A stretch of 64,000 nt of DNA from Cerasicoccus sp. TK19100 (lineage in GTDB: Bacteria > Verrucomicrobiota > Verrucomicrobiia > Opitutales > Cerasicoccaceae), in contig NZ_JAPWDU010000002.1 of assembly GCF_027257155.1 (NCBI RefSeq), positions 682,001-746,000 on the forward strand. Direction: 5' to 3'. Shown piece by piece: positions 35,907-62,936 of this stretch (position 1 is its first letter; every line of letters starts with the position of its first letter). The translations under genes were made by a program, and so were the position numbers. Below the pieces are notes generated by a model. That model had not been told where the DNA came from. It was given only the letters and a program-made list of their open reading frames with translations, and searched no databases.

Positions 35907-36620
35907 TTACTCGACGTAAGTTAGCCAGAAATGCCCCGGCTCGGGCTCGCCGTACTCCATAATCTCCTGCTCCATGTAGGTATGTCGCATGCCCGTGGGG
36001 GAGTAAATGATCACCGCGGTCATCATTTGCTCCGGACGCAAGGCGATGACGCCATCATAAAGCATACGCCAGCCGTCTTGGGTTTTCTCCCCAACTTTCG
36101 CAATTACGCGATGCTTGGCATCTGGGTTAAGCTTTAAAAGCGTGGTACTGCCCGCAGCGAGTTGTGCCTTGGCATCGCCAATGACAATCGCCGTGTCCGC
36201 AACACCGAGGTTAAAAATCCTGAGTGACTGCGGTGTCTTATCCTCGCTGCCAGTTTCCAAAATAACGTAATCGTAGCCGCTCGCATTGGATGTATCCGGC
36301 TGGACCACGACAAGCGCAGACTTGCCTTGTTTCGGCGCATTCAGCGTCAGTATTTTTTGACGCGCATCATTCTTGCGGGAGCTCTTGGCCCGCAGGATTT
36401 CCAAAGGCTGACCAAGCGAAACCTTAACCGGTTGACTGATCGAATACGGTGCCGCACTCACCCGTTTTTCCCCGCCTTCCTGCTTTAAGAAATAGGCACC
36501 TCGCGATTCATCAAGGAACAGAAAACGCAACTGCATCGTCTCACGCTCCTGCCCAAACAAGGAGCAAGCGCTAAAGATCAGAATCAAAGTCAGCCAACTG
36601 ACTGGAGATAAACGCATCAT
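35907..36620 (-). CDS. Secreted protein of unknown function, partner of the prepilin-like gene
   Basis: The 237-residue protein starts MMRLSPVSWLTLILIFSACSLFG, a signal peptide (a Cys in FSACSL may be lipidated, though the lipobox is poor). The rest is beta-rich (ALVVVQPDTS, YDYVILETGSEDKTPQSLRIFNLG, GWRMLYDGVIALRP) without a recognised family. Its start codon overlaps the upstream gene's stop by 4 bases (ATGA), so the two are translationally coupled and probably act together. It converges on the PAS-AraC gene with 11 bases between stops. Confidence 0.75.
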   Translation of the reverse strand: MMRLSPVSWLTLILIFSACSLFGQERETMQLRFLFLDESRGAYFLKQEGGEKRVSAAPYSISQPVKVSLGQPLEILRAKSSRKNDARQKILTLNAPKQGKSALVVVQPDTSNASGYDYVILETGSEDKTPQSLRIFNLGVADTAIVIGDAKAQLAAGSTTLLKLNPDAKHRVIAKVGEKTQDGWRMLYDGVIALRPEQMMTAVIIYSPTGMRHTYMEQEIMEYGEPEPGHFWLTYVE

Positions 36621-39600
36621 ATTTCGTCGGGGGTTAACCAGCGGAAGGAAATGATTTCATACTTACGGCCAAAGCGTTGGTTCGTCGCATCCGTTGGGGA
36701 TTCGTAAGGTGCATTACCGATCCCGCCCTCACGCGGGATCACATAGTCCGGCATACGCTGCACAATGGCTTCACACCATGCCTCAGACTCTACCTGATCC
36801 GTAAGCGGGTTCACGACATTGCCATAAGCGCGGATACGAAAGGTGTCCGAACGCGCCGTCAAGTGGGCACCCAGTGAGGACAACACATCGCCTTGCAAGA
36901 GGTATCCCGGAAAGCCGCTGATCGCAGTCGGCATTTGAAAGTCCGGATCAACCAGCAGCGATGAATTTGTACTACTCTCGACATCGAACGGCGAAAGAAC
37001 GTCGCCCTCCTGGTTAACCACTGCGTCGAGCGCCGACTGCAAGGCACCGCTGACGCCCAAGTCGTTCGGGTCATCATCCTTGTTGATAAGCCGGCGATTC
37101 ACAAAGTCAGCCATCGAGGTGAATGGCCCCCGCAGCCGGACCTGTCTTACCATTTCCTCGGCCAGCGCATCCACCTCGTCTTCACTCAGATTGCGGAAAC
37201 CACGCCAGGCATTTGCGTGAATACCGGTCTTGGCTCCCTCTGCCCCACCACTTGGTTGGAACGTGCGCGAGAATGGCGCTGTAAGATTGTCCGCATCGGT
37301 TTCCGATCCTAAATCAACGCCGCGCAAGCTGGAGAACAACGCTTTCCACGCCTCTTTGGAAGTCGAGTTGATATTGAAAGCACCGTCGGCCATGAGGTTC
37401 GTTGCCGCCATTCGTCCGTTGTTCGACGAGGCTGGATTTCCATCGCCCCGAAAGTGCGATTCCTCATTCCAAGGCACTTCGTTTGGCGCACGAAATGGGC
37501 GGTAACGCTCGTTAACCAATGTATCACCGCTAGCACCGAAATCAAACTCACCCTGCGTAGGATAGGTTGAAAAATAGAAGCGATCCCAAAGCACATCATT
37601 CCACAAATACGAGCCATCGTAGTGATACCCGGAGAACGGACGGGAGTCGAACAAGCGGTCGCGATCGATGCGCGGATGCGCGTAGGAATTGCCAATCGGA
37701 TAATTCATTTGCCAGGCCTGAACCGTGGTAGCACGCGCCGCGCTGCCGCCATTGGACGAACTCGACCAACTGGTGCGATCAATGATGGGCGTCGTATTGA
37801 AATGCTGTAGCTGCCCCAATGACGAGAGCGGCACGTCAGGGCGCGGAATGTCGTAAAGCAAGTTTTCAAAACCAACTTCCGTCCCGGAGATTTCCGACGG
37901 AGTGACGGACTGGTAATTGGCAGTGCCAGTATGCAGCGGCCCCCAACGCACCTTGGTTAGGCTGCTGGAATCGCGGAGCAGGTTCGCACCAAAATACTGA
38001 TCATTACCCGCCTCACCTTTTTTCGTTAAAGTCTTTGCCCATTCCAGTGGATGCGATTTGGCCGTGTAGCCATGGAAATACACCACAGAGCTACGGTAAT
38101 TCAGCTGATAAAACATCGACTGTTGCAGCGAGTCCGTCACATCGAAAATAGTGAAACCAATGCCACCGCCCACCTGGAGCCCCGAAGAAACCGGATACAC
38201 AAAAAACACTTCGTGCTGGTCGGACGTATTGGGCTTTGCCGTTAAGTATTGAATCAACTTGCGGTCACCGTCGCTACTATGTGAGGCCGGATCGTAGTCG
38301 AGGTAAAGCCGTGAGACAATCTTGGTGCTCGTGCAATAAAGCGCCGCATATTCATAACGACCACTGATAGTTTTGCCCGTATCCAAACGTAGCGCGGCCA
38401 GTGGATCGTAGTCGTTAACCATCTCGGCGCGGATTCCCTTTTGCGCATTGGAGTTGGTGGGAATATTATAATTACCATCCAACGTGAAAATCTGCGCTTC
38501 ACCCGCTGCCAAGCCATCACTCACCACCACGAGCTCGATCTCGCCCGCTCCCGCTTGCGTCACGGAATAGACGGAGTCATCCTTCGTGAATGAGCTTTTA
38601 ACGCCGGAGTCGTTGTCCTTATTAATGACCTTTGGGTCATAGGGGTCGACAGGATCATCAGGATTGGTATTATCGCCCCCGAGGCGGACTTGGAGAGAAG
38701 GGCGAACAAAATTCAGCGTGTATTCTGCCGGGCCTAAATCCACCGCATAAGGGTTGGCCAAAACGATGAGCGGCTTGGTCTCCACATAAATTTTTCCGCT
38801 CGAATCGACATCCAAATTGTAGAAGAGCTTTGCCTGCATTTGAATCGGATGCAGGCCATGTTGAGTGGGTGTGGTGCGCTGCGGGATTGCCCGGCCAAGA
38901 TCATCATAAACTCCGGCCGGTGTATCCGTTTGCTGGTTGCCCATGTTGTGAAATGACCACAACTGTTCCCAGGTCGGCGTGTAAGCGAGGATGCCCGGAT
39001 TGTCGTCAAAATCATGACCCGACCCCGAGATGTTGGACGGCACCGTGGCATAAAGCGAAGCCTCTTCGGTCAAAACGCGATTACTGGTAACCTCGATCGC
39101 AACGTCGTCCTCGTAAGCATGGTTGAGCGCCGTGCGCATCGACTCCAAATCGGGCTGCCCAAGAATGTAAGACAGGTCATGCTTCAGGCCACCGTGCTTG
39201 ACGTCTGCCAGCACGCCGCGCGAGTGCGCCGTGATGTCATGGAGCCGGTTGTCGAGAGCACGAATATATGCGTTGTCCAAATTCAACAAAGCCAAATCCT
39301 GTGCCTCGGCAATTGTCCCAAAACGCTCGTGATTGGCCTCATAAAAATTCTGCAACCCAGTGTCATCCGGTGCGAGGTCCGCATTCGCCGTCATGGCTTC
39401 GATTCCCATTCTCTGCGCTGATGTTAGCCGCTTAATCGCATCAACTGCTTCGGCTGAGTTCTCAAACTCGTCCACGAGATCGACGCGCGCCTTAACGCCC
39501 TCATCACCGACCCACCAGGCATAATTACCGACGTCGATGTTGTCTTTGCTCACCGGAAGCAGTGGTGCCGTCACGGCGCGAATGGTCGAATCGGCACCTG

Positions 39601-40150
39601 CACCGGGGCTAACCAAAAGCTGATGCCGCACGCCATTGGCATCCACCAAAGTGGCCTGCGAATCGGTACTGGGAGTGAGGCCGGTAATGCTGTCTTCCGG
39701 CGAAAGGCTCAAGCCCTGATCATAGCCACTGACTAGCCACGCGAGATGCGTGGGCTGAGCGTTGTAGGCAACGACATCGTCCGCATCGTATTCCGATTCG
39801 TTGGCGTTGCGCCAAACACCGGTCCAGTGCGCATTGCGTGCAGCGCTCCAGTAGTCATGCACTTGCTCACCGCTCAGGCTCGTGTCGTCGTTGGGAAAAA
39901 GCAAGTCTGCCTGCCCTGTTACGCGCTGGTCTGGGCCGGTATGTTTCTGCACCTCTCCGAGCGCCACCATCAGCCCGAACAAGGCATTCTGGCGCGCTTC
40001 ATTACTATCATCCTTAGAATGAATCGTGGACATCTCCACCTGCGTCACCGTGGCAACGGATAGCAAGAGAAGGAAAATGAAACCCATCAACATGAGCGCA
40101 ATGACTAAGGCAAAGCCACGCTCTCGTTTCTGGCTGGTGTTAAAATACAT
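36617..40150 (-). CDS. 1177-residue prepilin/PilX-GspK-like protein (resembles Verru_Chthon cassette protein A)
   Basis: The N-terminus MYFNTSQKRERGFALVIALM carries a Gly-Phe prepilin-peptidase site and then a hydrophobic helix (FIFLLLLSVATVTQVEM). The +5 residue is not Glu, as in PilX or GspK-type minor pilins. The remaining ~1130 residues are extracytoplasmic, rich in Asn, Asp and Tyr, and include GspK-like wording near the C-terminus (LRGPFTSMADFVNRRLINKDD). This design and size recall Verru_Chthon cassette protein A, a large pilin-like family in this phylum. It may join an extracellular pseudopilus. The ATG at 40148-40150 is chosen because it directly precedes the leader. It is coupled to the next gene by a 4-base overlap. 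Confidence 0.75.
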   Translation of the reverse strand: MYFNTSQKRERGFALVIALMLMGFIFLLLLSVATVTQVEMSTIHSKDDSNEARQNALFGLMVALGEVQKHTGPDQRVTGQADLLFPNDDTSLSGEQVHDYWSAARNAHWTGVWRNANESEYDADDVVAYNAQPTHLAWLVSGYDQGLSLSPEDSITGLTPSTDSQATLVDANGVRHQLLVSPGAGADSTIRAVTAPLLPVSKDNIDVGNYAWWVGDEGVKARVDLVDEFENSAEAVDAIKRLTSAQRMGIEAMTANADLAPDDTGLQNFYEANHERFGTIAEAQDLALLNLDNAYIRALDNRLHDITAHSRGVLADVKHGGLKHDLSYILGQPDLESMRTALNHAYEDDVAIEVTSNRVLTEEASLYATVPSNISGSGHDFDDNPGILAYTPTWEQLWSFHNMGNQQTDTPAGVYDDLGRAIPQRTTPTQHGLHPIQMQAKLFYNLDVDSSGKIYVETKPLIVLANPYAVDLGPAEYTLNFVRPSLQVRLGGDNTNPDDPVDPYDPKVINKDNDSGVKSSFTKDDSVYSVTQAGAGEIELVVVSDGLAAGEAQIFTLDGNYNIPTNSNAQKGIRAEMVNDYDPLAALRLDTGKTISGRYEYAALYCTSTKIVSRLYLDYDPASHSSDGDRKLIQYLTAKPNTSDQHEVFFVYPVSSGLQVGGGIGFTIFDVTDSLQQSMFYQLNYRSSVVYFHGYTAKSHPLEWAKTLTKKGEAGNDQYFGANLLRDSSSLTKVRWGPLHTGTANYQSVTPSEISGTEVGFENLLYDIPRPDVPLSSLGQLQHFNTTPIIDRTSWSSSSNGGSAARATTVQAWQMNYPIGNSYAHPRIDRDRLFDSRPFSGYHYDGSYLWNDVLWDRFYFSTYPTQGEFDFGASGDTLVNERYRPFRAPNEVPWNEESHFRGDGNPASSNNGRMAATNLMADGAFNINSTSKEAWKALFSSLRGVDLGSETDADNLTAPFSRTFQPSGGAEGAKTGIHANAWRGFRNLSEDEVDALAEEMVRQVRLRGPFTSMADFVNRRLINKDDDPNDLGVSGALQSALDAVVNQEGDVLSPFDVESSTNSSLLVDPDFQMPTAISGFPGYLLQGDVLSSLGAHLTARSDTFRIRAYGNVVNPLTDQVESEAWCEAIVQRMPDYVIPREGGIGNAPYESPTDATNQRFGRKYEIISFRWLTPDEI

Positions 40151-40392
40151 ACTGGGGTCGGGGTTGGTGTCGCTGAATAACAGCATTACATATCCACCAC
40201 CGAATACAACTCACGCCCAACGCAATAGATTGCGCCGCATGGTGCATCAGCAATACGGGAGACACCACTTTTTCATTGTCCTATACTAGGGTATACATCG
40301 GAATGTTCAAGTCAGTGGTTTCACAAAGAATCAACCTTCTCGAACTAAAGAGAAAGGACAAACAAACCGCAGCTGGCGCAACCGCCCGACAC

Positions 40393-41835: not shown

Positions 41836-42930
41836 TTAAGCTAACAGCAGGCTCTGCCCCGGGTGCCAAACTCCCTCGACCATGGTCGTCAGCGGAACCT
41901 CGGGCACACCACGTTCGCCGCGCTGAATGGCCCCAATCATCATGTCCATTGCAGATGCGGCGACATCGCCCGGGCGCTGGTCAACACCCGATATTTCCGG
42001 ATGCTCCGCCTCCCAATTGAGCGTGGCAAAGTCGACATCGCCAGGAACGTTGATACCTGCCGCCTGGAGCTCATGCATGACTACGAGATTATCGCTGATC
42101 ACGACTTGCAGCTTGTTGCGCTGGCACCACTCTGGCGCGCTGTGCAGCGTCTCGTCGTTGAACAAATAACGCGCCACCTTCATCTTGCGCTTCTTGCCGT
42201 TTATCTCGTGGCGACGCTCATTGGCGACGAGTGCGGCGGACAACCACAAGTCGTCCACGCGGCGGCTCGTTTCGCCAAACAAGCACAGCCCCACACGCTC
42301 ATAGCCGGCGGCAAATACCTGACGCAATGCCTCCTGCATCCCATGAAAGTGGTGAGGTGCGCTGCGGTGCAGATTTGGCGTCATGAAGGAGTAGCCAACG
42401 GTCACGGAGCTGAAGTGCTCCCAGTCCATATCAATGTGTTGGCGCACTTCTTGAATTGGGGCCATAAACAGTCCCAGGATACCGCGGCTATAAAGAATTT
42501 TGCTAAGCCGCGCGGCAGTCATCCCTTTTTCGCCGAGCCAGAAATGCTCCAGCTTGTAGCCCATGTCCTTCAGGCGCTTGGCAGCACCGGCATGGCACTT
42601 GGCGTAAAAAGGATTATCCCGCCATTCGTCGCGCTGAGAGAAGTTCGTTAAGTAGGCGATCGTCGTGATATCCGACTCCCGCGATCGCCCCCGGCGGCGC
42701 GAGGCAAAGGCCGACAGCAATGGGTCCGGCCGATAGCCCATAGTCTCCGCCACTTGCTTGATCCGCTTGCGCGTCGTTTCCGGGATTTGCGGGTTCGAGC
42801 TGAGCGCACGGCAAACAGTCGACGCGGACACCCCCGCCCGTTCGGCGATGTCCTTCATTGTTACTCGTTCCAGGGAGGTTTGAGAATCCGGGGTACTCAC
42901 AGAGCGTGAGTTAACGCGCTTTCGGCTCAT
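41836..42930 (-). CDS. LacI-family transcriptional regulator
   Basis: The 364-residue protein has the LacI helix-turn-helix at residues 23-70 (VTMKDIAERAGVSASTVCRAL, ETTRKRIKQVAETMGYRPDP) and a periplasmic-binding-protein-like sensor domain. It starts 22 bases after the stop of the GH-A enzyme gene and is therefore the second gene of that operon, whose promoter carries two copies of the predicted operator. It shares sensor wording with the LacI at 52540 (LGEKGMT versus HEKGMTHHRI), so the two are close paralogues. It is the best candidate for the factor that binds the GCAA-N4-TTGC palindromes. Confidence 0.93.
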   Translation of the reverse strand: MSRKRVNSRSVSTPDSQTSLERVTMKDIAERAGVSASTVCRALSSNPQIPETTRKRIKQVAETMGYRPDPLLSAFASRRRGRSRESDITTIAYLTNFSQRDEWRDNPFYAKCHAGAAKRLKDMGYKLEHFWLGEKGMTAARLSKILYSRGILGLFMAPIQEVRQHIDMDWEHFSSVTVGYSFMTPNLHRSAPHHFHGMQEALRQVFAAGYERVGLCLFGETSRRVDDLWLSAALVANERRHEINGKKRKMKVARYLFNDETLHSAPEWCQRNKLQVVISDNLVVMHELQAAGINVPGDVDFATLNWEAEHPEISGVDQRPGDVAASAMDMMIGAIQRGERGVPEVPLTTMVEGVWHPGQSLLLA

Positions 42931-42952: not shown

Positions 42953-43984
42953 TCAGGCAGTCGTCAGCGCGGCCTCCATTAGCGCACGGTAAGACAACTT
43001 TGGTTCGCCATGTTGGTCCAGCAGACCCCAGGCCGTCTCAGCCGGACACGCCTCCTCCTTGCACTGCCAGCAGTAAGTTGCATCGCGCCAGTTGTAGTAA
43101 ATCGCACCGAGCACGTAAGGCTTCTCGCGGTAGATTTTCATGACCTCGCGAATGTATTCCGCCTGCATTTCCTGGCTATGCTCACCGCGCCAGGCGAACT
43201 TCCATTTCTTAATGTCGCAGGGATAATGACCGGCCGCGATCTCAGCCTCGTTCATCACACCACCCGCAGAGGCGTAGCCAAATTCCATGATCACGATCGG
43301 CTTGCCGGTCAGTTCGTAGAAGCCCTCCAGATACTCCGCCCAGACTTCGGGCCCTCCCTCACGCCAGCTGCCCGGATAGCTATCGAAGCCCGCATAATCC
43401 ACCGGCAGCGTATCATCACCATAGATGCCGCGCGCCAAGGCCAGACCTTCGGAAGCCTCGGTGTTGCCATCAATCACGCCAGGCATATCCGGAAACAGTG
43501 TGATGTTGATGCCGACTTTTAACTGCGGGGCCTCGTCCTTCATTGCGAGAATGCCCACCTTTAAAAACTCAATGGACTGCGCCATATCGAGCGTGTCGCG
43601 GAAAATCCAGATATCGAGTTCGTTGGCGACCTGCCACCACTGAATCAAATCGCCAAACTCCTGCGCAAAGAAGCGGCTCACGCGGTCATAGGCGTCGTAG
43701 TAAGATGCACTACCGGGTTCCAGTCCGAGTTTTGCCATCTCACGAGGTCCGGGCGTGATGCCAATCAGCTCAAAGCCCGCCTCCCGCAGATCACGTAAAC
43801 GCTGTGTGGCCGAGTAAAATTCTTTCGGCTGCTTGCGGCCTTCCAGAAAGGCCAAGGGGTCAAATTGAAAATCGCCAAAGCGCAGCCAGCCAATGCCGGC
43901 GTCTTTCATCATTCGAAAATCACGGTCGCTCAGCTCGGTATATCGAGCGGCCACGCCCATCATAAATTCGTTGGTGTCTTGCAT
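42953..43984 (-). CDS. Cytoplasmic clan GH-A glycoside hydrolase-like TIM-barrel protein
   Basis: The 343-residue protein has no signal peptide. The order of barrel motifs fits clan GH-A: GIGWLRFGDFQFDP early, WQVANELDIW with the Asn-Glu acid/base pair near residue 140, and KPIVIMEFGYASAGG with the likely nucleophile Glu near residue 230. I cannot place it in a numbered family. Seven Cys residues include a cluster in the C-terminal part (CWQCKEEACP), which may bind metal. It is transcribed with the LacI gene and diverges from a secreted GH5, so it probably processes the oligosaccharides taken up after GH5 cleavage. Confidence 0.72.
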   Translation of the reverse strand: MQDTNEFMMGVAARYTELSDRDFRMMKDAGIGWLRFGDFQFDPLAFLEGRKQPKEFYSATQRLRDLREAGFELIGITPGPREMAKLGLEPGSASYYDAYDRVSRFFAQEFGDLIQWWQVANELDIWIFRDTLDMAQSIEFLKVGILAMKDEAPQLKVGINITLFPDMPGVIDGNTEASEGLALARGIYGDDTLPVDYAGFDSYPGSWREGGPEVWAEYLEGFYELTGKPIVIMEFGYASAGGVMNEAEIAAGHYPCDIKKWKFAWRGEHSQEMQAEYIREVMKIYREKPYVLGAIYYNWRDATYCWQCKEEACPAETAWGLLDQHGEPKLSYRALMEAALTTA

Positions 43985-44110: not shown

Positions 44111-44225
44111 GCAGAAGGCTTTGAGGATGCCAGCGGCACACGATTAGTTGCTGTTATCCCTACCCCGGTTGTTTTCATTCCCCTGAATGCCGCGTGCGTT
44201 CTCAACCCCAACCCCCACAATAAGC

Positions 44226-46880
44226 ATGATGCACCGAATACTACCCGTGCCCCGGGCCCTATTGGCCGGAGGCTGCTTACTCACTGCGATCTGCGGCCAT
44301 GCCGCGATTACCCTCGACAACTGGTCGTCCTCCCCCTGGCAGTTAACCGGTGGCGATGTCGACTTCTCCGCTACCTTAACCGACCCCGTCTACCAGGGCG
44401 GCACGAGCGCCAGCTTCGTCTTCGCCACCCCGAAAACCGGTGTCGACGTGTCCACGCAATCCACGCCGGATGACTCCGTGGCATCGGCGTCTGTCTTTGG
44501 CGTCGAAGGCACCGGCTTTGGCGTTAGTGAAACTTACGTAGGCCGCTTTAATCGCGGCGAAAGCTTCACGCTACAAGTCGATCACGCCTTCCAGCTCAAT
44601 GGCATTCGCTGGGCCGAATACCAAGGCGACGAGGCCATCCACATCGCCTGGACCAGTGGCGGCGCTACGATGAGCCAGGTCTTCGATCTGCCTGCCGGTT
44701 CGTTCTACACCACCACGAACTTCAATGATATCATCATCGACGCCAATACGCTGGTGACGATTACCAACGTCAGCGATACCAGCGCGAGCGCGAGCGGCCG
44801 CCTCCGTATTAACCAAATCTACACCGAGTTGGTCGATGCCGTCACGCTGCCGGAAATCGGTGAGACACACCTGCTGAACAACTGGAGCAGCGCCCCATGG
44901 AGCCTGACTTCAGGGCAGACCACATTCTCTGCCAATATCAGCGACACCGTCCTTGGGGACGTGCTCGTGAGCTTCTACGATCCGGTGACGGGTGCCGATA
45001 TATCCGACCCACAGGCACCAGACTTTAGCAGCGCCAGTTCCTCGACCTTTGGCGTAGAGGGAACGGGGTTTGGTGTGGGCAACTCCGGCACCGGGCGCTT
45101 TGATCGCGGTGAAAGCTTCATCCTTGAAGCCGATGAAAGCTTTGAATTGCAAAGCATTCGTTGGGTCGAGTATTCAGGCGATGAAAGCGTTCACTTTGCA
45201 TGGCAAAGTAATGGCGTGCCGATGAGCACGGTGATCGATCTACCCGCCGGTTCGTTCTACACCGAGACCGAGCTCAGCGGCATCTTCCCCGACGCCAACA
45301 CCCCACTGGAGATCACCAACGTCAGCAGTAGCGGTGCCTACCTAAACGGACGCCTGCGCATCAACCACGTCGAGCTGGCCTTCCTCTCCAACGCCCCCGT
45401 CACCGGCAGCACCGCTGGTGCCTACATCTTCCTGCGGGACTGGCAGCAGTGGCCATGGGATGCATCCCCCGGCGACTCCACAATTAGCGGCACGCTCTGG
45501 GCACCGGAGAATGGCGGCAGTAACATTGCCTTCAACTTCCTCGCCTATGCGAACGTAGATGTGGACACGCCCAGTGCGCCGGACTTTACCAACGCCACCG
45601 CTTCGGTCTTTGGCTTTGAATCAACCGGTTTTGGCGTGGGCGAGACCAACGTGGGCCGCTTCAACCGCGGTGAAAGCTTCACCGTCACCGCCGGACACGA
45701 CTTGCAGATCGATACCATTCGCTGGCGCGAAGTCCAGGGCGACGAGCAGGTACATATCTCTTGGGTGAACAACGGCACCGCGCAATCTGTCGTGCTTGAT
45801 GTGACTAGTAGCACCTCGGATCTGACTGACGTGATTGCCGACGCCAACACCGCCATCGTCATCACCAACGTCAGCCCCACCACCTCATCCCTCAATGGCC
45901 GCTTGCGTGTGCAAGACTTCAAGGCGCGCGCCGTTTACGCCACAGCGCCGACCTACGATCACTCCGGCCCGGACGGCTTTGTCCAGATGATGGGGGTCAA
46001 CCTGGCGGGTGCCGAGTTTAGCGGATTCGCCTTTTGGCAGGACAACCCGCAAGAGTGGGATTACTACCATAGCAAAGGGCTCGACCTGATCCGCATCCCC
46101 TTCAAATGGGAACGCCTGCAGCCCACACTCTACGGTGCGGTGGACTTCACCGACCTCGATGCCATCGTCGCCCTCGCCGATGCGCGCGGCATGAAAGTCG
46201 TCCTCGATATGCACAACTACGCCCGCTACAATGGCAACGTTATTGGCACGACCAATGTGCCCAACGCCGCCTTTGCCGATGTATGGCGCAAGCTCGCCGA
46301 CCACTATAAAAACGAGTCCGCGATCTATGGCTACGGCATCATGAACGAGCCGCACGGCACTGGTGGACTCTGGCCCGCCGCCGCCCAAGCCGCCGCCGAT
46401 GGCATTCGCGATGTGGACAGCAATACGTGGATCATCGTCGCGGGTGAAAACTATAGCAGCGCATCGACCTGGCGCACCAGTAACCCCAACCTCGACGTGC
46501 AGGATGCCTCCGGAAAAACCATGTATGAGGCCCACATCTACTTCGACCAAAGCTGGCCCGCCGGTGACGGCAGCTACAGCTCGTTTGACAACGAGAACCC
46601 GGAAGACGACCGAGGCGTGCGCCTGGTCCACCCGTTCCTGCTTTGGCTGCAAGAGAAGAACGCCCGCGGCTTCATTGGTGAGTTCGGCGTGCCCAACAAC
46701 GACGCACGCTGGAACGTGCTGCTCGACGAGTTCATGGCCCACATCTCCGCCTACGGCATGAGCGGCACCTACTGGGCCGGCGGCGAGAACTGGGGCAACT
46801 ACGCTCTGGATATCTCCCCTACCAACAGCTACACGACGGACGCCATTCCGATGCAGGTGTTGGAAAATTACGCCTTCTAG
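44226..46880 (+). CDS. Secreted GH5 glycoside hydrolase with three N-terminal repeat modules
   Basis: The 884-residue protein has a signal peptide (MMHRILPVPRALLAGGCLLTA, cleavage near GHAA). Three homologous beta-type modules of about 165 residues follow (about 30-200, 215-386, 399-571). Each opens with an NWSSxPW or DWQQWPW motif and contains FGxExTGFGVxxxxxGRFxRGESF and GRLRI or GRLRV; they look like carbohydrate-binding modules of a type I cannot name. Residues ~580-884 are a GH5 domain with acid/base Glu708 in NEPHG and nucleophile Glu819 in GEFGVP. It should cut a beta-linked polysaccharide; glucan or mannan is possible. ATG 44226 starts the signal peptide. A strong terminator follows. 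Confidence 0.9.
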   Translation: MMHRILPVPRALLAGGCLLTAICGHAAITLDNWSSSPWQLTGGDVDFSATLTDPVYQGGTSASFVFATPKTGVDVSTQSTPDDSVASASVFGVEGTGFGVSETYVGRFNRGESFTLQVDHAFQLNGIRWAEYQGDEAIHIAWTSGGATMSQVFDLPAGSFYTTTNFNDIIIDANTLVTITNVSDTSASASGRLRINQIYTELVDAVTLPEIGETHLLNNWSSAPWSLTSGQTTFSANISDTVLGDVLVSFYDPVTGADISDPQAPDFSSASSSTFGVEGTGFGVGNSGTGRFDRGESFILEADESFELQSIRWVEYSGDESVHFAWQSNGVPMSTVIDLPAGSFYTETELSGIFPDANTPLEITNVSSSGAYLNGRLRINHVELAFLSNAPVTGSTAGAYIFLRDWQQWPWDASPGDSTISGTLWAPENGGSNIAFNFLAYANVDVDTPSAPDFTNATASVFGFESTGFGVGETNVGRFNRGESFTVTAGHDLQIDTIRWREVQGDEQVHISWVNNGTAQSVVLDVTSSTSDLTDVIADANTAIVITNVSPTTSSLNGRLRVQDFKARAVYATAPTYDHSGPDGFVQMMGVNLAGAEFSGFAFWQDNPQEWDYYHSKGLDLIRIPFKWERLQPTLYGAVDFTDLDAIVALADARGMKVVLDMHNYARYNGNVIGTTNVPNAAFADVWRKLADHYKNESAIYGYGIMNEPHGTGGLWPAAAQAAADGIRDVDSNTWIIVAGENYSSASTWRTSNPNLDVQDASGKTMYEAHIYFDQSWPAGDGSYSSFDNENPEDDRGVRLVHPFLLWLQEKNARGFIGEFGVPNNDARWNVLLDEFMAHISAYGMSGTYWAGGENWGNYALDISPTNSYTTDAIPMQVLENYAF

Positions 46881-47323: not shown

Positions 47324-49501
47324 TTAGCGCATGGCCTTCATCTCGAACTGCTTGCCAGCGAGCGCTTCTTTGGCTGGTTCACCCCAGAATGGCGTGGGCG
47401 TGTAGTCCCAGTCGACCAGCATACGCGGTGTGGCACGCGGGTGAAAGCACCAGCCGGTCCAGTTGATTTTATGCTTTTGGATAAAGCCCAGCATGTCCGG
47501 CACCCACGTTGCGGGATCTTCCTGAATTTCAGACGGGATGAACTCCATCTTCTTCGGGTCGGCACCGACCTCACCCAGGAAAATCGGGTACTTCTCGGCG
47601 GCGGGCAGAACTTTCTCTTCCCAGTTGTCGTGCCAGTTGTAGGTGTGCCAGGAATACATGATACCGTTGCCGCCCTTGTCATCGAGCGCATAGCCGTTGA
47701 CCACGCCTGTCAGGTCGTTACACCAGAACAAACCGCCGGCGATGATGATGTTCTTCGCGCCCGTCGAGCGAACGGCGTCCACGAGGCCCTGCATGCCCAC
47801 GGACTCAAAGCCCATGTTCTTCTTCTTCTCTTCATCGGTGAGGAAGCCGGATTCGTCGGTGCCCTTCTTCGTGCCAACAAAGCCGCCATTACGCCAGACC
47901 TCCCAAGAGATGTCATGCGGCTCGTTCATCACGTCGAACAGCACTGCCGGGTGGTCCTTGTAGAGGGCGGCAAACTCTTTCCAAAAATCCGCATGTTCCT
48001 GCTTGGGAGCACGGTAACGGTGGAGATCGATCACGATGTAGGCACCACGATTGGCCGCGAGGGTGATCATCTTGTCAATGATGTCGCGATAGCCTTGGCC
48101 GCCATCTTTTTGGTAATGGCTCTTGCCCCACCAGAACTCTTCCTTCATCGGCACGCGCACGCAGTTGGAGTTCCACTCGTCGATGGCAACGACCAGCGAC
48201 TTAACCGGCTGCTCGTCCATCGGCAGGGTTTCCAAGCCACCGGCATTGACGCCCTGCAGCCACACTTCGTTGCCATCGGTGTCGTGCAAGCGGTTGCCAA
48301 CGACCTTCAGCATCTTCGGCCATTTGCTTGGGTCGGGCTCCTCGGCAGGGACAAACTTCGCGGCCTGTTGGCGCTCCCTGGCTGCCTTGCGTTCCAGCAC
48401 GGGCGCGGGGTCAATCGGCTTCAGCACAAAGTCGTCCAGCTCGTAGGTCCCGGCCTTCACGTTGAACAGCGCAGGCATCAGAACGAGCGTAGCCGCGTTC
48501 TCTGGGACGAGGAAATCTTTGCTCTTTTCCACCCAGCCCTGGGTGTCCTTTTGCGAATAAGAGGGAGACGGATTACCGCCGATCTTCTTACCGTTAGCGT
48601 CCTTCCACTCCAGCATGATGCGCGCGTCAAACCACGGTTTCTCGCCCTTCTGAAGACCGGTCACATTTTGCTTCCAGCTCAGCTCAAGCGCTTCGGTATT
48701 AGCCGGAATATCGACCTCTCGGTAGTCGTTGACCATCTTACCCGGCTCCGTGCTGACCAGTTGCAGGTAGTGGTTGCCGTCTTTTTCGACGATATTTTTC
48801 TTGTTCGCCCAGCGGCCCTCGTGGTCCCACCCCGGAACCAGCGAACCAGTCTGGGCAAGCTGCTTGGCGGCCTTCTCCTGGCGGCTGGCCAGCTTGGCAC
48901 GTTCCTTCTCTTCGCGTTCCAAGCGGGCCTGCTCGGCCGCAGCGCGCAGAGGCTCCGGATCAGTAGGCATCAACACGAGATCATCGATGTCGAACGTGCC
49001 CGCCTTGACCTGAAACAGGCACGGCATAAACTTGAGCGTCTTGGCTTCCGGCGGGACGATGAAGGCCGTCTTTTTCTCGACCCAGCCAGCCGTGTCGCGG
49101 CGGGTGGAGGGAGCCTTGGGCGTCGGCCCGATCTTAGAGCGATCCTCCGTGAGGAATTCCATCAAGATGCGCGCGTCGAACCACGACTTTTCGCCGACTT
49201 CGAGCCCGGTTACGCGCTGCTTCCAGGTCATCTCAATCGCCTCGACGCCATAAGGAATCGGAATCTCCTGGTAGAGCATGACCATGGCACCAGGCTCGGT
49301 GCTGCTCAAGCGGATGAAGTGGTTGCCCTCCTCGACCTCCCAACTGCCGCCGGTTTTGAGCTTAGCCCAGTTGTCTGGCCAGCTGTCCAGATCAGCATCG
49401 GTTTCGAAACCGGTATTGGATACTAGGGGCTCAGCGTGAATGACAGCCACGGAAGCGCAAAGCGCGATGAGGCGTAAAAAGGTGCGGGATAATTTGTTCA
49501 T
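47324..49501 (-). CDS. Secreted GH5 glycoside hydrolase with two N-terminal binding modules
   Basis: The 725-residue protein has a signal peptide ([23 protein letters not shown]). Two homologous modules (about 25-185 and 225-385) follow. Each contains LSSTEPGAM- or LVSTEPGKM-type, WKQxVTGLxxGEKxWFDARI and [10 protein letters not shown]-type motifs, and they look like CBM4/9-type beta-sandwiches. A charged helical linker ([21 protein letters not shown]) joins them. The C-terminal GH5 domain (~400-715) has the acid/base in DVMNEPHD and the nucleophile in LGEVGAD. The substrate is a beta-glycan not identifiable here. A predicted operator (49598-49613) lies 97 bases upstream of the ATG. Confidence 0.9.
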
Positions 49502-49709: not shown

Positions 49710-51467
49710 TCAGGTTTCGTCGGCCTGCAATTTTAAAAAGCAAGGCGTCGCGCCGGACACCTTGACCCGCCAACGCTTGAGCGCCGCGCTGCCATCGCCG
49801 TCCGGATCGGCTTGCAGGGTTTCCTCGATTACGTTGACGCCATCTGGCGAAAGCGCGGTCCAGGAACTCGGCAGCAAATCCTCGCTGCGGAGCACCGAAT
49901 ACTGGATGCCGGTGGCGAGTTGATTCGTGCGAAAGTCAAAGGTCAGCCACGGGCCATCGGCCGTATCGGAGTCGGTGCTGAAGGTGGCCGTCTTGCCCGC
50001 AAGGTTGTCCAGCGGCGGAAGATCGAGCGCGTAGGCGAACCAGTTGGAAACGCCGTCGTGGTTGGGATCGGCCTCCGGGCTGGAGTCCTCGGCACCCCAG
50101 TCGATGGCATCCGACCAGTCGAGGTAGCTCAGTGTTTCGTTGGCTGCGAGAATGGCCTCAAACGCGGCTCTTAGCGGAACGGCGGCCAACGCATAACCCT
50201 GGCCATTGGGGTGCGTGCCGTCTTTGGTCGCATAGTCGTTGGCACCGGTCGTCACCCAATAATGATCGTCAGTGGGGTCCGCCACCGGCGTTAGCGTATC
50301 GACGAGCACGTCGATCAAGCCCTGCGAAAGTGCGGTCTCCAAATGGGCGTTTAGCTGATCGCGCTCACCGCCCTCGCCCCAACCGTTGTTGGGCGTTTGG
50401 TCGGCCAGGCTGGTCCAGTTACCAGAGGCCGATGTCGTGCGCGGCATGAGTTTGGTCCGCAGAACTTTTTCCACGCCAGCGTCGCGCGCAAGTTGCCAGA
50501 TCGCCTGGAGGCGCGTATAAATTACGTCGGCATCTCCCGTCCCGTTGGACCCGATGTCGTTCGTGCCGTATTCTTCGACCACCACATTGGCAAAAGGCAG
50601 GAACACTTCGCGCATCGCATGGGAGTTGACAAAGGTATTCGCGGATTCACCGTGGCGCGCCAGGCTAAGCATGCCGACTGCGTTCTCGCCATCGCTGTCC
50701 AGGGCCGCGCGATCCAGAAAGCCGCTCCCTGAGATGACGGGCGTCGGGTTCGTCGCGTCGCCGGAGCCGTGGAGAATGCTGTCGCCCAAGCCAATCACCG
50801 ACAGGTAACCCGGCCCCGTGAAGCGCCCGCCAAACATGACGGCGAGGCCGTTAGTACGTTGATTTTTACCCGTGATGTTTGGCACGGCACCCGCAGTATC
50901 CACCGTCCCCGGATCATTGGCCGGATCGTAAAAAAGAAACTTCGAGCCGCTGTAGGTCGCATAAACGCCGAGGCAGGCTTTGCCGTCTGTCGCTGGCACA
51001 CTGCCCTTCACGTGCAGCCAGAAAACTTCGTCGCGTTGCGGCGTGCCACCCGTCCAGACCGAGGAGTCCACGGGGTCCGCCATGTAGTAAGGCTCGGCGA
51101 CACCGCCCAACAGCACCACCTCACGTTCGCCGTCGAAAGTCAGCGGCACGATCTGGCCATCGCTGTCGCGCTCCAACCAGGCATAGCTGATCGTAACGTC
51201 GCTGCTGTTAATGACCTCGCCACTGTAGCCGACGGCCCAGTTCATAAAGGCGATATCGATCTCTGCCACCGGTCCGCCGAGCTTGTGTGGCGTGCGTTGC
51301 CAGAACGCAGTGTTCGTCGCCCCGGGCGAATAGGTAAACGGTGACATGCGGCTATTCGTGCCAACCACACGCATCGGCTGCACGTCGGCCATCGTGGACA
51401 AGGTTGGGACTAACACCGAGGCCAGTAAAAGGAACCGGCGAATTTTGAGGATGAAGCAATAAGACAT
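49710..51467 (-). CDS. Secreted SGNH/GDSL-type hydrolase
   Basis: The 585-residue protein starts MSYCFILKIRRFLLLASVLVP, a signal peptide ending near STMADV. A beta-rich N-terminal part of about 200 residues is followed by an SGNH hydrolase core: VIGLGDSILHGSG (nucleophile Ser), EYGTNDIG (block III Asn) and DGTHPNGQGY (catalytic His). The C-terminal ~120 residues resemble a small beta module with a calcium-type motif EADPNHDGVSNWF. Such enzymes often remove acetyl groups from polysaccharides, which would assist the neighbouring GH5 enzymes; the substrate is inferred. Predicted operator 5 lies 68 bases upstream. Confidence 0.82.
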   Translation of the reverse strand: MSYCFILKIRRFLLLASVLVPTLSTMADVQPMRVVGTNSRMSPFTYSPGATNTAFWQRTPHKLGGPVAEIDIAFMNWAVGYSGEVINSSDVTISYAWLERDSDGQIVPLTFDGEREVVLLGGVAEPYYMADPVDSSVWTGGTPQRDEVFWLHVKGSVPATDGKACLGVYATYSGSKFLFYDPANDPGTVDTAGAVPNITGKNQRTNGLAVMFGGRFTGPGYLSVIGLGDSILHGSGDATNPTPVISGSGFLDRAALDSDGENAVGMLSLARHGESANTFVNSHAMREVFLPFANVVVEEYGTNDIGSNGTGDADVIYTRLQAIWQLARDAGVEKVLRTKLMPRTTSASGNWTSLADQTPNNGWGEGGERDQLNAHLETALSQGLIDVLVDTLTPVADPTDDHYWVTTGANDYATKDGTHPNGQGYALAAVPLRAAFEAILAANETLSYLDWSDAIDWGAEDSSPEADPNHDGVSNWFAYALDLPPLDNLAGKTATFSTDSDTADGPWLTFDFRTNQLATGIQYSVLRSEDLLPSSWTALSPDGVNVIEETLQADPDGDGSAALKRWRVKVSGATPCFLKLQADET

Positions 51468-51534
51468 TGGGGATTCGTAAATGTTTTCAGATCGCATTGT
51501 GCCGGGTTTGTGCCTTCAGTCCGAAACGTTCGCG

Positions 51535-57507: not shown

Positions 57508-58527
57508 CTACGGGCGCCGTGGTGACGGGCCCAAAGTATCGCGCAGGACTAGTTCACAACGCAGTGATGAATATTGAGGCGGCTCTTCGGTATGCTCCAT
57601 CCGGGTTTTCAGCATCCGCATAACCTCATTGGCCAACGCCGTGCGATCCGTACGAATCGTCGAGAGGCCAATTAATTTCGCCTCTGCAACATCGTCACTA
57701 CCGAGCAATGAAAAGTCCTTCGGGATCGATAAGCCACGATAACGTGCCTCATAATAAATCGACCCCGCCGTATAGTCGTTGTACGCCACGATCGCAGTCG
57801 GGTAACTACCGAGTCGCTTCCAGCGGTCCATGGCCACGGAACCAGCCTCTTGGCCATCCACGTCGAACACCGAATGCTTTTCATCAAACTGCATGTCCAC
57901 CGCCTCCAGTTGACGCAGCAGCACACTATACTTACCCAGCGGTTTCGCTCCGGGCGGAATCTGGCCGACATACGCCACGGACTGGTGGCCGACATCGCGC
58001 AGATATTTCAGCGCCTGCGCCATGCTGTTGTCGTATTCAAAACCGATCCCGTCAAAATCACCGCCCAGATTACCATAGAGAAACAGCAACGGATAACCCC
58101 ACGATTTCACTTTCTGATAAATATCCAGATTCGTATTCGCGCGAATGGGATTAATGACCATGGCATCGGTCTCCCCGGCTGACCAGTGTAGGATCGTGTT
58201 CGCCTCGGTCTCCATATCGTCGTGCGTAAGCGCGAGAATTGAAGAAGACCCGCTGGCGGAAATGGCGCGATCCAACTGCTCATAAAGCTCGGAGTAATTC
58301 GTGTTGCGCAAGTTCGGCAAAATGATGCCAACACGCCCACTGTAGCCACGCTTGAAGTTTCTCGCCGATGGATTCGGATGGTAGCCGATCTCACGCGCCG
58401 CTTTCAGAATTCGCTCCTTGGTTGCGGTGCTGATCCCCTTCTGTCCGTTGAAGGCTCGGGAAATCGCTCCATGGGAGAATCCCGTCTTCTTGATCAGATC
58501 TTTGAGTGTAGGTCGCTTCTCGGGCAT
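57508..58527 (-). CDS. LacI-family transcriptional regulator
   Basis: The 339-residue protein has the helix-turn-helix TLKDLIKKTGFSHGAISRAFNG at residues 7-28, then ERILKAAREIGYHPNPSARN, and a complete sugar-binding sensor domain (VGIILPNLRNTNYSELYEQLD to FSLLGSDDVAEAKLIGLSTIR). It belongs to a more typical LacI branch than the other two regulators here. It is divergent from the GH172 gene at 58807, with an inverted repeat just upstream of its start (58555-58571), so control of that gene and itself is likely. Confidence 0.93.
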   Translation of the reverse strand: MPEKRPTLKDLIKKTGFSHGAISRAFNGQKGISTATKERILKAAREIGYHPNPSARNFKRGYSGRVGIILPNLRNTNYSELYEQLDRAISASGSSSILALTHDDMETEANTILHWSAGETDAMVINPIRANTNLDIYQKVKSWGYPLLFLYGNLGGDFDGIGFEYDNSMAQALKYLRDVGHQSVAYVGQIPPGAKPLGKYSVLLRQLEAVDMQFDEKHSVFDVDGQEAGSVAMDRWKRLGSYPTAIVAYNDYTAGSIYYEARYRGLSIPKDFSLLGSDDVAEAKLIGLSTIRTDRTALANEVMRMLKTRMEHTEEPPQYSSLRCELVLRDTLGPSPRRP

Positions 58528-58806: not shown

Positions 58807-59961
58807 ATGAATTCATTCAATGGCCTCGGCCTTCATTTGGGCAATCTGTCCCTACTTTCCAAAGCCAAAACGCGCTCAATTTCTCCCGAGAACCCAAATG
58901 GTGAAGTCTCCGGTGGTGGACGCGCCGTGCCCGAGCTCGATGAGCAAGGCAAACCCGCCGGGCCCGCTCGCTACCTGGGCAAAGGTTGGAAGGTCCGCCC
59001 ATTCATCGAGATCCAACCCGGCGAAACCGCCGAGATCGCTAACATCGAAGGCCCGGGTGCCATTCAGCAGATTTGGATGACCCCGACCGGCGTCAATCGT
59101 ACCTCTATAATCCGTTTTTACTGGGATGACCAGGAGTTGCCGTCCGTCGAGTGCCCGGTGGGTGATTTCTTTGCCAGCCCCTACACGAGCTTCAACGTTT
59201 TCGCGCAAGTTACCTCGCTGCCAGTCTGCGTGAACCCGGGCAATGCGTTCAACTGCTATTGGGAAATGCCATTCCGCAAACGGTGCCGCATCACGATCGA
59301 AAATCGGGACGTCAATACGCCGATCAAGGTCTATTACCAGATCAACTACACCCTGACCGACGTTCCGGAAAACGCCGCGTATTTCCATGCGCAGTTCCGC
59401 CGCAGCCGCCCCGTGATGGAAGGCGAAGTTCACACGATCCTCGACAACATCTCCGGCGCGGGCCACTACGTCGGCACCGTGATGGCCTGGCAGGTCAACC
59501 ACAATGGCTGGTGGGGCGAAGGCGAAATCAAGTTTTACCTCGATGGCGACGCGAAGCCGGAAGTCTCCAACGGCGAGGTCGTGGGTGGCTCCACGGGCTA
59601 CCCGACCATCTGCGGCACAGGCGCGGAAGACTACTTCTGCGGCTCCTACAATTTTGAGAACAAAGAGACCAAGCAATACCAGGAGTTTACCACGCCCTAC
59701 GCCGGCATGCCACATGTCGTGCGCCCGGACGGTGTCTACAACGCCAACACCCGCTTTGCGCTCTACCGCTGGCACGTGATGGACCCCATCCGTTTTGAAG
59801 AGGACATCAAGGTAACGATCCAATCCCTCGGCTGGACTCGCCGCGGCGACTTCCTACAGCGCCTCGACGACATTGCCTCGGTCGCATTCTGGTATCAAAC
59901 CCTCCCGACCCCAGCCACCTTCCCCGAGCTGCCCAAAGGCATCGCAATCGACAATATCTAA
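58807..59961 (+). CDS. DUF2961 / GH172-family glycoside hydrolase
   Basis: The 384-residue protein has the DUF2961 signatures: RPFIEIQPGETAEIANIEGPGAIQQIW, the ECPVGDFFAS segment, and GTGAEDYFCGSYNF. Members of GH172 act on alpha-linked fructofuranose or arabinofuranose. It has no signal peptide, so it should act in the cytoplasm on imported oligosaccharides. The double jelly-roll fold is known from the family. It is divergent from a LacI regulator, an arrangement that suggests substrate-induced expression. Confidence 0.88.
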   Translation: MNSFNGLGLHLGNLSLLSKAKTRSISPENPNGEVSGGGRAVPELDEQGKPAGPARYLGKGWKVRPFIEIQPGETAEIANIEGPGAIQQIWMTPTGVNRTSIIRFYWDDQELPSVECPVGDFFASPYTSFNVFAQVTSLPVCVNPGNAFNCYWEMPFRKRCRITIENRDVNTPIKVYYQINYTLTDVPENAAYFHAQFRRSRPVMEGEVHTILDNISGAGHYVGTVMAWQVNHNGWWGEGEIKFYLDGDAKPEVSNGEVVGGSTGYPTICGTGAEDYFCGSYNFENKETKQYQEFTTPYAGMPHVVRPDGVYNANTRFALYRWHVMDPIRFEEDIKVTIQSLGWTRRGDFLQRLDDIASVAFWYQTLPTPATFPELPKGIAIDNI

Positions 59962-60287
59962 CGCGACGCCTTTTAACTGAGCACAGCAGCCACCAGCCAC
60001 ATGGCTGACCATAACGATCCGAATTAGCTTAGCTGGCGGATAACGCATTGTCTCCGCCAGCATTCTGCTGGATCGGTTGGATATGGATCGTGTGCATGTG
60101 AGGTCCCCAACAAAGCGGCGCATTCACCGATCAAAAAAAGCCCCTGCCGACACGGCTACACTCAACGCGCTACCTCGCCTTTAGCCACACGATGCTATAC
60201 GGGTAAATCATCAAAGCTTTAGACGTGGGGAACACGGTCGGCTATGAAGGGATTTGTTACCACCCTTCACCCCAACCCCACTCCATC
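59962..60287. other. Intergenic gap before the lyase-like gene
   Basis: It contains a perfect 8-bp stem CTGGCGGA/TCCGCCAG (60033-60060, 12-base loop) and an A7 run near 60135, but no hairpin with a T run and no gene that I can support. No copy of the shared operator is seen. Confidence 0.5.
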
Positions 60288-62936
60288 ATGTATGTGTCTA
60301 AGCTCTCGTTGACTGTCTCGTGTACTAATCGCACACGCAGAACCCACCACTCATGCAAACGGCTCCTCGTAGCGTTATTCCTGAGCGCGCTCTTGGCCAT
60401 ATCGCACACTGCTCAGGCCAATATCTTGGAAACCTTCGATTTCGAAACCGGAGATTTGTCGCAGGTCGGCTCCACCGAAACCGAGGGGGCCAGCGCGAGC
60501 GTCTCAGCCAGCTCCGCCCAAGCGCGTCAGGGGACTTACTCGATGCGCTCCTACATGCAGAATCAGGACAAGCGCGCAGAAATCGTCAGCAGTCGGCGCG
60601 GAACCGTGGGCGGCGAGCATTGGTATGGCTGGAGCATCTATCTTCCCGCCAATGCCGGAGACACCACCCAGGACATCATTTCCCAGTTTCACGATTGGCA
60701 TTCATCGCAGCCGTCATGGGCTAAAGACGGCGTTGCACCCACGTGCATTGTCGCCAAAACCAACGGCCATTTGCAGATGGATTTGAAGTTTCAAAAGATC
60801 GGGCTCAACGAAACTGAGCACGATTACTTCGACCTCGGAGCATTCACACCCAACGCGTGGAATGACATCGTGATCCACGTCAAATGGACGCATGAGACGA
60901 CCGGCTTCATGAAAATCTGGGTCAACGGCGTGCTGCAAATGGACTACACCGGGCCTACCTATCTCGACTACGGTCCTGGCAACGGCCCCTACTTCAAAAT
61001 GGGCAACTACAAGGGCGTTTATCATTGGTCCGGTGATTCGCCACGCACCTACTACATGGACGAATATCGCATGGGCGACGCCTACGCTAGCTACGCGGAT
61101 GTCAATCCCGCCCGCAGCATGCATGACGCGGCGCTTATTGCCTACGAGGGCTTCGACTACGCAGTGGGCTCCGTGGACGGCGCAAATGGCGGCATCGGCT
61201 GGGCGTCAGCCTGGAGCGAATGGGGTAACGGCGGCGACGCCTCCACCATCGCCGATTCTTTCAGCTATGCCTCACTCGCCAGCACGGGCAATCGCTTTCG
61301 CGTTTACGACACGGACGGCAACCGGCAGGGCATTGTCCGCACCTTGTCCACAACCCTCGGCGCAACCGAAGGCACTTACTGGATATCCTTTATCGCCAAA
61401 AAGAATCACTCCGGGCGCGAAGCCTACATCGAATTTGGCGACATGGCTTTACGCGCTTACCAGAGCAACGATTGGGAAATTAAAACGCCGGACACCAGCT
61501 ACACCACGCTCACCGGCGCGGGCTACGCCGCCCAGCATTTGTTCCTGATCCGCGTCGATGCCGGTGCCGTTAATGACACCGTCTCTGCGTGGGTCGATCC
61601 CGACCTGGCCAGCGGTGAGCCGTCCACGGGCAGCGCCCTCGTCACCCTGACAGACGCGGGCGGCTTCACCTTTGACACGGTAAACATCCAACACGGCGTC
61701 TGGGGTAACGCCATGCAATCCAGCGAATGGGACGAGCTCCGCATCGGCGAATCGTTTGCTGCCGTAACCCCTGCTCCCAGTGCACCGCTCTTTGTCTACG
61801 AGGCGTTTGACTACGCAACAGGCAGCCTTGATGGTGCCGATGGCGGCTTCGGGTGGAGCACGCCCTGGATAATCAGCGGTGGCGCGGGCTACGCCGAGGT
61901 CCTCAGCGCAGGCTTTGACTACACCAATCTGGTGAGCCAGGGTAATCGTTTTAAAATCTACGATACCGACGGCGTGCACCAGACGGCGACCCGCCAACTC
62001 GCCCAAAGCGTCGGCGCAGAAACCGGCGAATATTGGCTGTCTTTCCTGACCAAGAAAAACAGCTCCGGCCGCACATCGTCGATCGATTTCGGTGGCCTCT
62101 CCTTCAAGGCGGCCAGCGGAGACTGGCAGGTCAAGGGCCCGACGACCAGCTACGCAACCATAACGGGTGCTGCCTACAACGAGCTACACTTTTTCCTGGT
62201 GCGCATGGATGCCAGCCCAGCGGGCAATACCATCCATGTGTGGGTCGACCCCGACCTTAGCCTGGGCGAGCCGTCGACCTCCGGCACCGACCTCACCTTG
62301 AGCGACGAAGCTTTCTTCAGCTTTAATACGCTCGCGATTAAGCACGGCCCCTTTGGCAACTCCTCGCAGTCTGCCGAATGGGATGAGCTGCGCGTCGGCA
62401 CCAGCTTTGCAGACGTTGTCACCGGTGATTTCACCAATGCCTTGGAAACCGACGCCGATGCTTACGTGCGCAACGGAAGCTACGCCAACACCAATCACGG
62501 CCTCGCCTCATCGCTTTGGGTTAAAGCCGACGCCAGCGACGAGTATAACCGCCGCATCTTCCTGCGCTTCGACTTGTCGGGCTACTCCGGCAGCATCACC
62601 AGCGCCACCCTGTCGCTGATGCCCAACACCGTTGGCTCCGGCATTGCAAACACCGACTTGCAAGCCTACCTCGTCAGCAACGACAGTTGGGCCGAGACTG
62701 GCATCACTTGGAACAACCAGCCAGGCTACAGCACGCTGTTGGACACCATTAGCGGATCTACCATTCAAAACGGCGTCGCCGTAGAGTTCGATCTATCTTC
62801 CGCTGCCAGTAGCGAACAAAGCGGCGATGGTGCGCTGTCCATCGTCATCGTTAGCACGTCAGCGGGCAGTGATCGCTATGTGGTCTTTGACAGTTACGAA
62901 GCTGCCGGTGATCAGCCTTTGCTCATCCTCGAATAG
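60288..62936 (+). CDS. Secreted polysaccharide-lyase-like modular protein with C-terminal DNRLRE/CBM96-type domain
   Basis: The 882-residue protein has a long basic leader and the signal helix RLLVALFLSALLAISHTAQA. Residues ~48-275 resemble the heparin-lyase-I-like polysaccharide lyase family (GEHWYGWSIYLP, VIHVKWTHETTGFMKIWVNG, YYMDEYRMGD). Two homologous modules of about 215 residues follow, each opening YEGFDYAVGS or YEAFDYATGS and ending in WDELRIGxSFA or WDELRVGTSFA. The last ~170 residues (DADAYVRNGSYANTNHG, FLRFDLSG, WAETGITWNNQPG) match the DNRLRE/CBM96 alginate-binding type. The activity could be polysaccharide cleavage or only binding; I see no proof of a catalytic site. ATG 60288 is chosen over an upstream frame start. 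Confidence 0.78.
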   Translation: MYVSKLSLTVSCTNRTRRTHHSCKRLLVALFLSALLAISHTAQANILETFDFETGDLSQVGSTETEGASASVSASSAQARQGTYSMRSYMQNQDKRAEIVSSRRGTVGGEHWYGWSIYLPANAGDTTQDIISQFHDWHSSQPSWAKDGVAPTCIVAKTNGHLQMDLKFQKIGLNETEHDYFDLGAFTPNAWNDIVIHVKWTHETTGFMKIWVNGVLQMDYTGPTYLDYGPGNGPYFKMGNYKGVYHWSGDSPRTYYMDEYRMGDAYASYADVNPARSMHDAALIAYEGFDYAVGSVDGANGGIGWASAWSEWGNGGDASTIADSFSYASLASTGNRFRVYDTDGNRQGIVRTLSTTLGATEGTYWISFIAKKNHSGREAYIEFGDMALRAYQSNDWEIKTPDTSYTTLTGAGYAAQHLFLIRVDAGAVNDTVSAWVDPDLASGEPSTGSALVTLTDAGGFTFDTVNIQHGVWGNAMQSSEWDELRIGESFAAVTPAPSAPLFVYEAFDYATGSLDGADGGFGWSTPWIISGGAGYAEVLSAGFDYTNLVSQGNRFKIYDTDGVHQTATRQLAQSVGAETGEYWLSFLTKKNSSGRTSSIDFGGLSFKAASGDWQVKGPTTSYATITGAAYNELHFFLVRMDASPAGNTIHVWVDPDLSLGEPSTSGTDLTLSDEAFFSFNTLAIKHGPFGNSSQSAEWDELRVGTSFADVVTGDFTNALETDADAYVRNGSYANTNHGLASSLWVKADASDEYNRRIFLRFDLSGYSGSITSATLSLMPNTVGSGIANTDLQAYLVSNDSWAETGITWNNQPGYSTLLDTISGSTIQNGVAVEFDLSSAASSEQSGDGALSIVIVSTSAGSDRYVVFDSYEAAGDQPLLILE

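Follow-up and report, generated by a model that had tools for sequence, protein, structure and literature searches.

What role do the three tandem repeats that precede the catalytic domain of a glycoside hydrolase family 5 (GH5) enzyme play in Cerasicoccus sp. TK19100, a marine bacterium of the Verrucomicrobiota? The gene lies in a window of 64,000 nucleotides (contig NZ_JAPWDU010000002.1, positions 682,001 to 746,000 of the forward strand; coordinates below are those of the window) from a genome of 5.07 Mb. An earlier sequence-only reading of this DNA had proposed that the repeat is a module for multivalent glycan binding. The analysis indicates that it most likely represents a family of non-catalytic beta-sandwich carbohydrate-binding modules (CBMs) without a name in Pfam or NCBIfam, that is, a candidate new CBM family. 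Glycan binding by the module is putative and considered probable, and putative multivalent binding by the triplicate is the best reading of the arrangement.

The gene occupies a plus-strand open reading frame (ORF) of 897 amino acids at 44187–46880. The ATG at 44226, in-frame residue 14 of this longest ORF and the start used in the sequence-only reading, is the likelier start, because it fits the start region of the Cerasicoccus frondis homologue (L002), which starts at the equivalent place, and leaves a signal-like N-terminus (44226–44300, plus strand, judged by eye). Three module copies follow on the same strand: copy 1 at 44301–44846 (residues 39–220; hidden Markov model score 321 bits, E 2.9e-98), copy 2 at 44853–45401 (residues 223–405; 321 bits, E 4e-98) and copy 3 at 45411–45944 (residues 409–586; 307 bits, E 5.8e-94), the last standing directly before the GH5 domain. 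Pairwise identities are 54% (copy 1 with copy 2), 49% and 39% over 174–179 residues. The triplication ahead of the catalytic domain is real: the BLOSUM62 local scores between copies are 475, 397 and 342, whereas 500 shuffles of each pair never scored above 66. The repeat unit was first put at about 165 residues; the unit itself holds, with a length nearer 173–183 residues (about 175). All of the motifs named for it are present (NWSSxPW or DWQQWPW, GVEGTGFGV or GFESTGFGV, GRFxRGESF and GRLRI/V), the opening motif departing from this form in copy 3.

The catalytic domain (45942–46877, plus strand) matches Pfam PF00150 over ORF residues 620–866, with E-values from 1.4e-39 to 2.7e-38, the latter bearing out the original assignment to GH5. 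It contains the motifs NEP (residue 720) and GEFG (residue 831), which presumably carry the GH5 acid/base and nucleophile glutamates, and the domain is intact as far as its sequence can tell. Its solved relatives include 4lx4 (E 7.7e-72) and 1gzj (E 1.7e-25), and by their ranking the GH5_5-type endo-beta-1,4-glucanases appear to be the nearest solved enzymes. In an excerpt of the 2012 description of the subfamilies, 1GZJ is given as a representative of GH5_5, and endo-beta-1,4-glucanase activity is reported for all of the GH5_5 enzymes investigated by that year (PMC3526467). The Cerasicoccus enzyme resembles them in its catalytic domain and differs from them in the three attached modules; should glycan binding be confirmed, tandem accessory modules on a bacterial enzyme of the GH5_5 type would depart from the 2012 description of the subfamily (PMC3526467).

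Sequence searches gave the module no identity. The three copies match no convincing Pfam or NCBIfam family, and when 31 modules of the family were scanned singly, no CBM family was found in Pfam at E<=1 and nothing convincing in NCBIfam, in keeping with the proposal that the module cannot be matched to a known CBM family. Profiles of the module found no credible match among all PDB sequences, so that in these three resources neither a clear CBM nor a clear non-carbohydrate domain was encountered. Several matches were rejected as being at chance level, among them 'MISS' (5 of the 31 modules, best E 0.012), DUF5785 (one module, E 0.0018) and Aladin (E 0.021 to 0.43). The PHROGs search with the modules also gave chance-level matches only, the plasmid tblastn search with copy 1 as the query gave none, and a search at E<=10 of the genome to which the window belongs found no further copies. 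The literature searches, partly diluted by GH55 papers matching the term GH5_5, turned up no published description of the module.

The module could instead fall within a CBM family or clan already listed in CAZy but too poorly represented in Pfam and the PDB for a sequence match, which would challenge its novelty and not glycan binding. Not every CAZy CBM family has a Pfam model, and novelty is measured here against Pfam, NCBIfam and PDB sequences, the CAZy and dbCAN models lying outside the comparison. The CAZy numbering reaches at least CBM112, according to an excerpt of a recent study (PMC13357471), and an otherwise different Verrucomicrobiota protein (L084) has a weak profile match that hints at a wider superfamily. 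Against this stand the single-module scans of Pfam and the PDB searches reported above, and membership of an existing family is regarded as rather unlikely.

The prediction of structure, which had been suggested for one copy, was carried out for isolated copies 1 and 3 with AlphaFold2 from a 17-row alignment. Both of the models are confident beta-sandwiches composed nearly entirely of strands, with a mean predicted local distance difference test score (pLDDT) of 92.4 for copy 1 and 92.8 for copy 3 and a predicted template-modelling score (pTM) of 0.90 in each case. In these models, and by its fusion to PF00150, the repeat is a separately folding, non-catalytic unit joined directly to a carbohydrate-active enzyme, as is expected of a CBM. 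The nearest solved structures are largely CBMs, including CBM6, CBM35, CBM36, CBM29, CBM61 and the putative Aeromonas CBM 9q5u (Z 7–11). For copy 1, 9q5u stands well above the rest (Z 11.4, 3.7 Å, 151 aligned residues), followed by the CBM6 structure 2cdp (Z 8.8), the carbohydrate-binding domain of a pectate lyase, 8x8h (8.6), and the CBM35 structure 2w46 (8.2). For copy 3, the top structures are the Ape1 O-acetylesterase (Z 8.8) and the 8x8h domain (8.5), the lower rows including CBM6 2cdp (7.9), CBM61 (7.4) and CBM29 (7.3). Two matches at E<=0.001 in a viral fold library had a large root-mean-square deviation and were not used. The models thus suggest a beta-sandwich of a kind common among CBMs and nothing beyond that; a CBM family missing from the fold lists is not thereby excluded.

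The best match of copy 1, 9q5u (2025), is described as a 'putative carbohydrate binding module and split domain' of Aeromonas salmonicida. It shares 15% identity with the copy and has no sequence match to the module. In another species of the genus, A. hydrophila, an adhesin CBM binds fucosylated glycans, according to an excerpt of the report (PMC12077191). The modules may resemble the CBM6, CBM35, CBM36, CBM29 and CBM61 families in fold (Z about 7–8.8) and, like them, are non-catalytic modules on glycan-degrading enzymes. They differ in identity (7–19% in the list of copy 1 and 7–15% in that of copy 3), in the absence of any profile match and in being longer than most of these. A further parallel, drawn by description only, is the new family CBM112 of gut beta-mannanases (2026). 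According to the excerpt, it began as a glycoside hydrolase domain with a beta-sandwich fold and no assigned function, and was then shown to be a CBM; that domain differs in being inserted in a GH26 catalytic module of Bacteroides (PMC13357471).

The module family seems to be rare in Verrucomicrobiota, since few genomes were matched in each scan. A pattern scan of the genome contigs found five loci, and module profiles matched 5 of 54 genomes in a first set, 6 of 387 in the phylum (one of them, G047, weak and rejected), 10 of 372 in the order and, in the class to which a Kiritimatiellales metagenome-assembled genome (MAG) belongs, 3 of 288, two of which were too weak to be kept. These scans overlap with one another, and every one takes in a genome already known to match. 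Three weak candidates, G047 (E 0.0018), G897 (E 0.0011) and G769 (E 0.007), were left out; the matches span about 60–84 of 178 positions and lie in dissimilar proteins. The one in G897, from the class of the MAG (L084:1234–2010, plus strand), is weakly similar to the later half of the module, with part of the strand pattern in common. It may be distantly related, within a broader superfamily of beta-sandwiches that are secreted.

Clear modules were found in 20 proteins: 13 with a GH5 domain, five with a GH39-like domain and two SGNH/GDSL esterases, both of which also have a Golvesin_C domain. Four of the five GH39-like proteins are linked by sequence and one (L077) by eye, their GH39 match being below the Pfam cut-off. 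The module is N-terminal to GH5 and C-terminal on the GH39-like and esterase proteins. The 13 GH5 proteins carry three copies (six proteins), two (L006), one (five) or a fusion (L043), the GH5 domain being cut by a contig end in L006 and in the single-copy L088. The 31-module alignment was built without L043 (G097:C108, a broken fused module) and L088 (found later), although the total of 20 proteins includes both. Among named relatives, the closest to the gene is L002 of C. frondis, whose module 1 is 77–78% identical.

These positions bear on the idea that the modules are structural and bind no sugar, their beta-sandwiches serving to space, stabilise and present the GH5 domain or to mediate oligomerisation. 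Such a role would suit the copy-3-like or single module that stands directly before GH5 and is followed by a conserved linker, and a fold by itself reveals no function. However, the same module is C-terminal on the GH39-like and esterase enzymes, where there is no following domain to space, and most of its conserved residues are found in turns (WxxxPW, GFGV, GDE and DAN). A purely structural module is therefore considered unlikely.

Several observations weigh against the glycan-binding reading. The structure 9q5u is absent from the list of copy 3, and toxin, esterase and phage-tail beta-sandwiches share both of the lists, which marks the fold as generic. The Z-scores of about 7–8.8 over 105–124 residues against CBM6/35/36-like folds are close to those that can arise between unrelated sandwiches. 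Foldseek found no match for copy 1 at E<=0.001 and a single one for copy 3, a family-2 carbohydrate esterase (CE2). Several GH5 relatives carry just one or two copies, so the triplication is not needed. Glycan binding is supported by the predominance of CBMs among the fold neighbours and, independently, by the spread of the module over GH5, GH39-like and SGNH-esterase enzymes that are encoded in related gene sets.

The triplet seems to be old, as copies at the same position are more alike across species (55–78% identity) than the copies inside one protein (39–55%), and as the tree of 31 modules groups them by position. Copy 1 (support 89/87), copy 2 (100/99), copy 3 (79/12) and the C-terminal modules (93/93) form one group each, and none of 500 shuffles scored as low for this grouping; support is weak for many inner branches, and long branches lead to two of the single modules. 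The triplet would thus be older than the divergence between Cerasicoccus and two other families of the order (represented by G030 and G097), unless it was passed between them. The ratio of non-synonymous to synonymous substitution rates (dN/dS) of the modules is about 0.09–0.18 in comparisons of the window's own gene with those of frondis, maritimus and NP23, with dS partly saturated. Between the own and the frondis gene, dN is 0.17–0.22 in the modules and 0.10 in GH5 (dS 1.4–2.4). By these estimates, the modules are faster-evolving than GH5, yet under purifying selection. In a GH5 paralogue of 620 amino acids (L043, in neighbourhood L106; G097:C108:48067–48732), a module resembling copy 1 breaks off after its first half and continues in frame into most of a module resembling copy 3, as if the middle had been lost by unequal recombination between the repeats.

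The neighbourhood of the gene is conserved. A set consisting of a LacI-family regulator (41839–42930), a clan GH-A-like protein with a weak GH113 match (42956–43984), a second GH5 enzyme of a different GH5 type without the module (47327–49501) and an SGNH/GDSL esterase without the module (49713–51497), all on the minus strand, recurs near module genes. Of 14 neighbourhoods, 12 encode a protein homologous to the esterase or to the second GH5, with L100 and L101 as the exceptions. These neighbourhoods are the window, L003, L006, L095 with L096, and L097 to L106; several come from the same genome or genus and are not independent, and in L003 the esterase homologue is merely touched at the end of the locus. 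The second GH5 has two similar N-terminal repeats, seen by eye, and in L002–L003 an additional GH5 homologue adjoins it.

The esterase has eight homologues, itself included, at E<=1e-40 in seven module-bearing genomes. Two bear the module (G094 and G634), four lie about 0.3–12 kb from a module gene (G000, G002, G692 and one of the two in G097), and the remaining two (G652 and the other in G097) neither bear a module nor lie within that distance of one. Where a gene has one or two copies in a genome of 3.6–5 Mb, such closeness would be far above chance, as reasoned without simulation. The window's own esterase has no module, either in the family scans or in the genome search at E<=10. Because the esterase carries the module in G094 and G634 and not in the window, and because the company of genes is conserved, the module can be read as an accessory one that has moved among enzymes acting on one substrate. 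A region ahead of the Kiritimatiellales GH5 modules (L006:5557–5982, plus strand) matches the C-terminal part of the window's esterase (37% over 144 amino acids) and is another domain common to the GH5 enzyme and the esterase.

That modules are common to the enzymes of one kind of locus is also what would be expected of a docking domain, which could bind the cell's own surface polysaccharide or another protein and so retain the enzymes at the cell or within a complex. No PEP-CTERM match was seen on the GH5 protein, which would fit such a role. Against it, the nearest solved structures are mainly glycan binders and the copy number varies from one to three; no partner domain was seen, none having been specifically sought. 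Binding to something other than the substrate is judged very unlikely.

Other genes of the window are noted here. A protein of 1189 amino acids (36620–40186, minus strand) begins, as judged by eye, like a prepilin and faintly matches Verru_Chthon cassette protein A (E 0.062, well short of the cut-off); its homologues recur near module genes. A DUF2961 protein (58807–59961, plus strand; E 3.6e-86) adjoins a LacI-type regulator at 57511–58527. The window may contain more than one polysaccharide-degrading gene set, since a polysaccharide lyase (PF14099) with CBM96 is encoded at 60225–62936 (plus strand).

In the proposed mechanism, a secreted GH5 endo-beta-1,4-glucanase of the GH5_5 type would be tethered to its polysaccharide by the three predicted modules ahead of the catalytic domain, cleavage being left to the GH5 domain. 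With three consecutive sites, avidity could be higher or chains could be bridged. The conserved gene set (both GH5s, the GH-A-like protein, the SGNH esterase and the LacI regulator) would handle this polysaccharide, a single one being suggested because the module also occurs on the esterase and the GH39-like enzyme of related sets. The ligand is probably a beta-1,4-glucan-type polysaccharide, since the catalytic domain is GH5_5-like (4lx4 and 1gzj), and the presence of an esterase allows the guess that the target glycan is acylated.

A wider proposal, possible but tentative, is that these modules are the first members of a CBM family new to science, which would be restricted to a few lineages of Verrucomicrobiota and specific for one substituted beta-1,4-glucan-type polysaccharide. 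Within a single degradation locus they would have been passed among the endoglucanase, the esterase and the GH39-like enzymes, the pathway being marked by the module rather than by any catalytic domain. If glycan binding is confirmed, the repeat would constitute a new CBM sequence family, and the enzymes that bear it and their neighbours could be used to deduce the target polysaccharide. The module could also serve to mark this degradation locus in Verrucomicrobiota.
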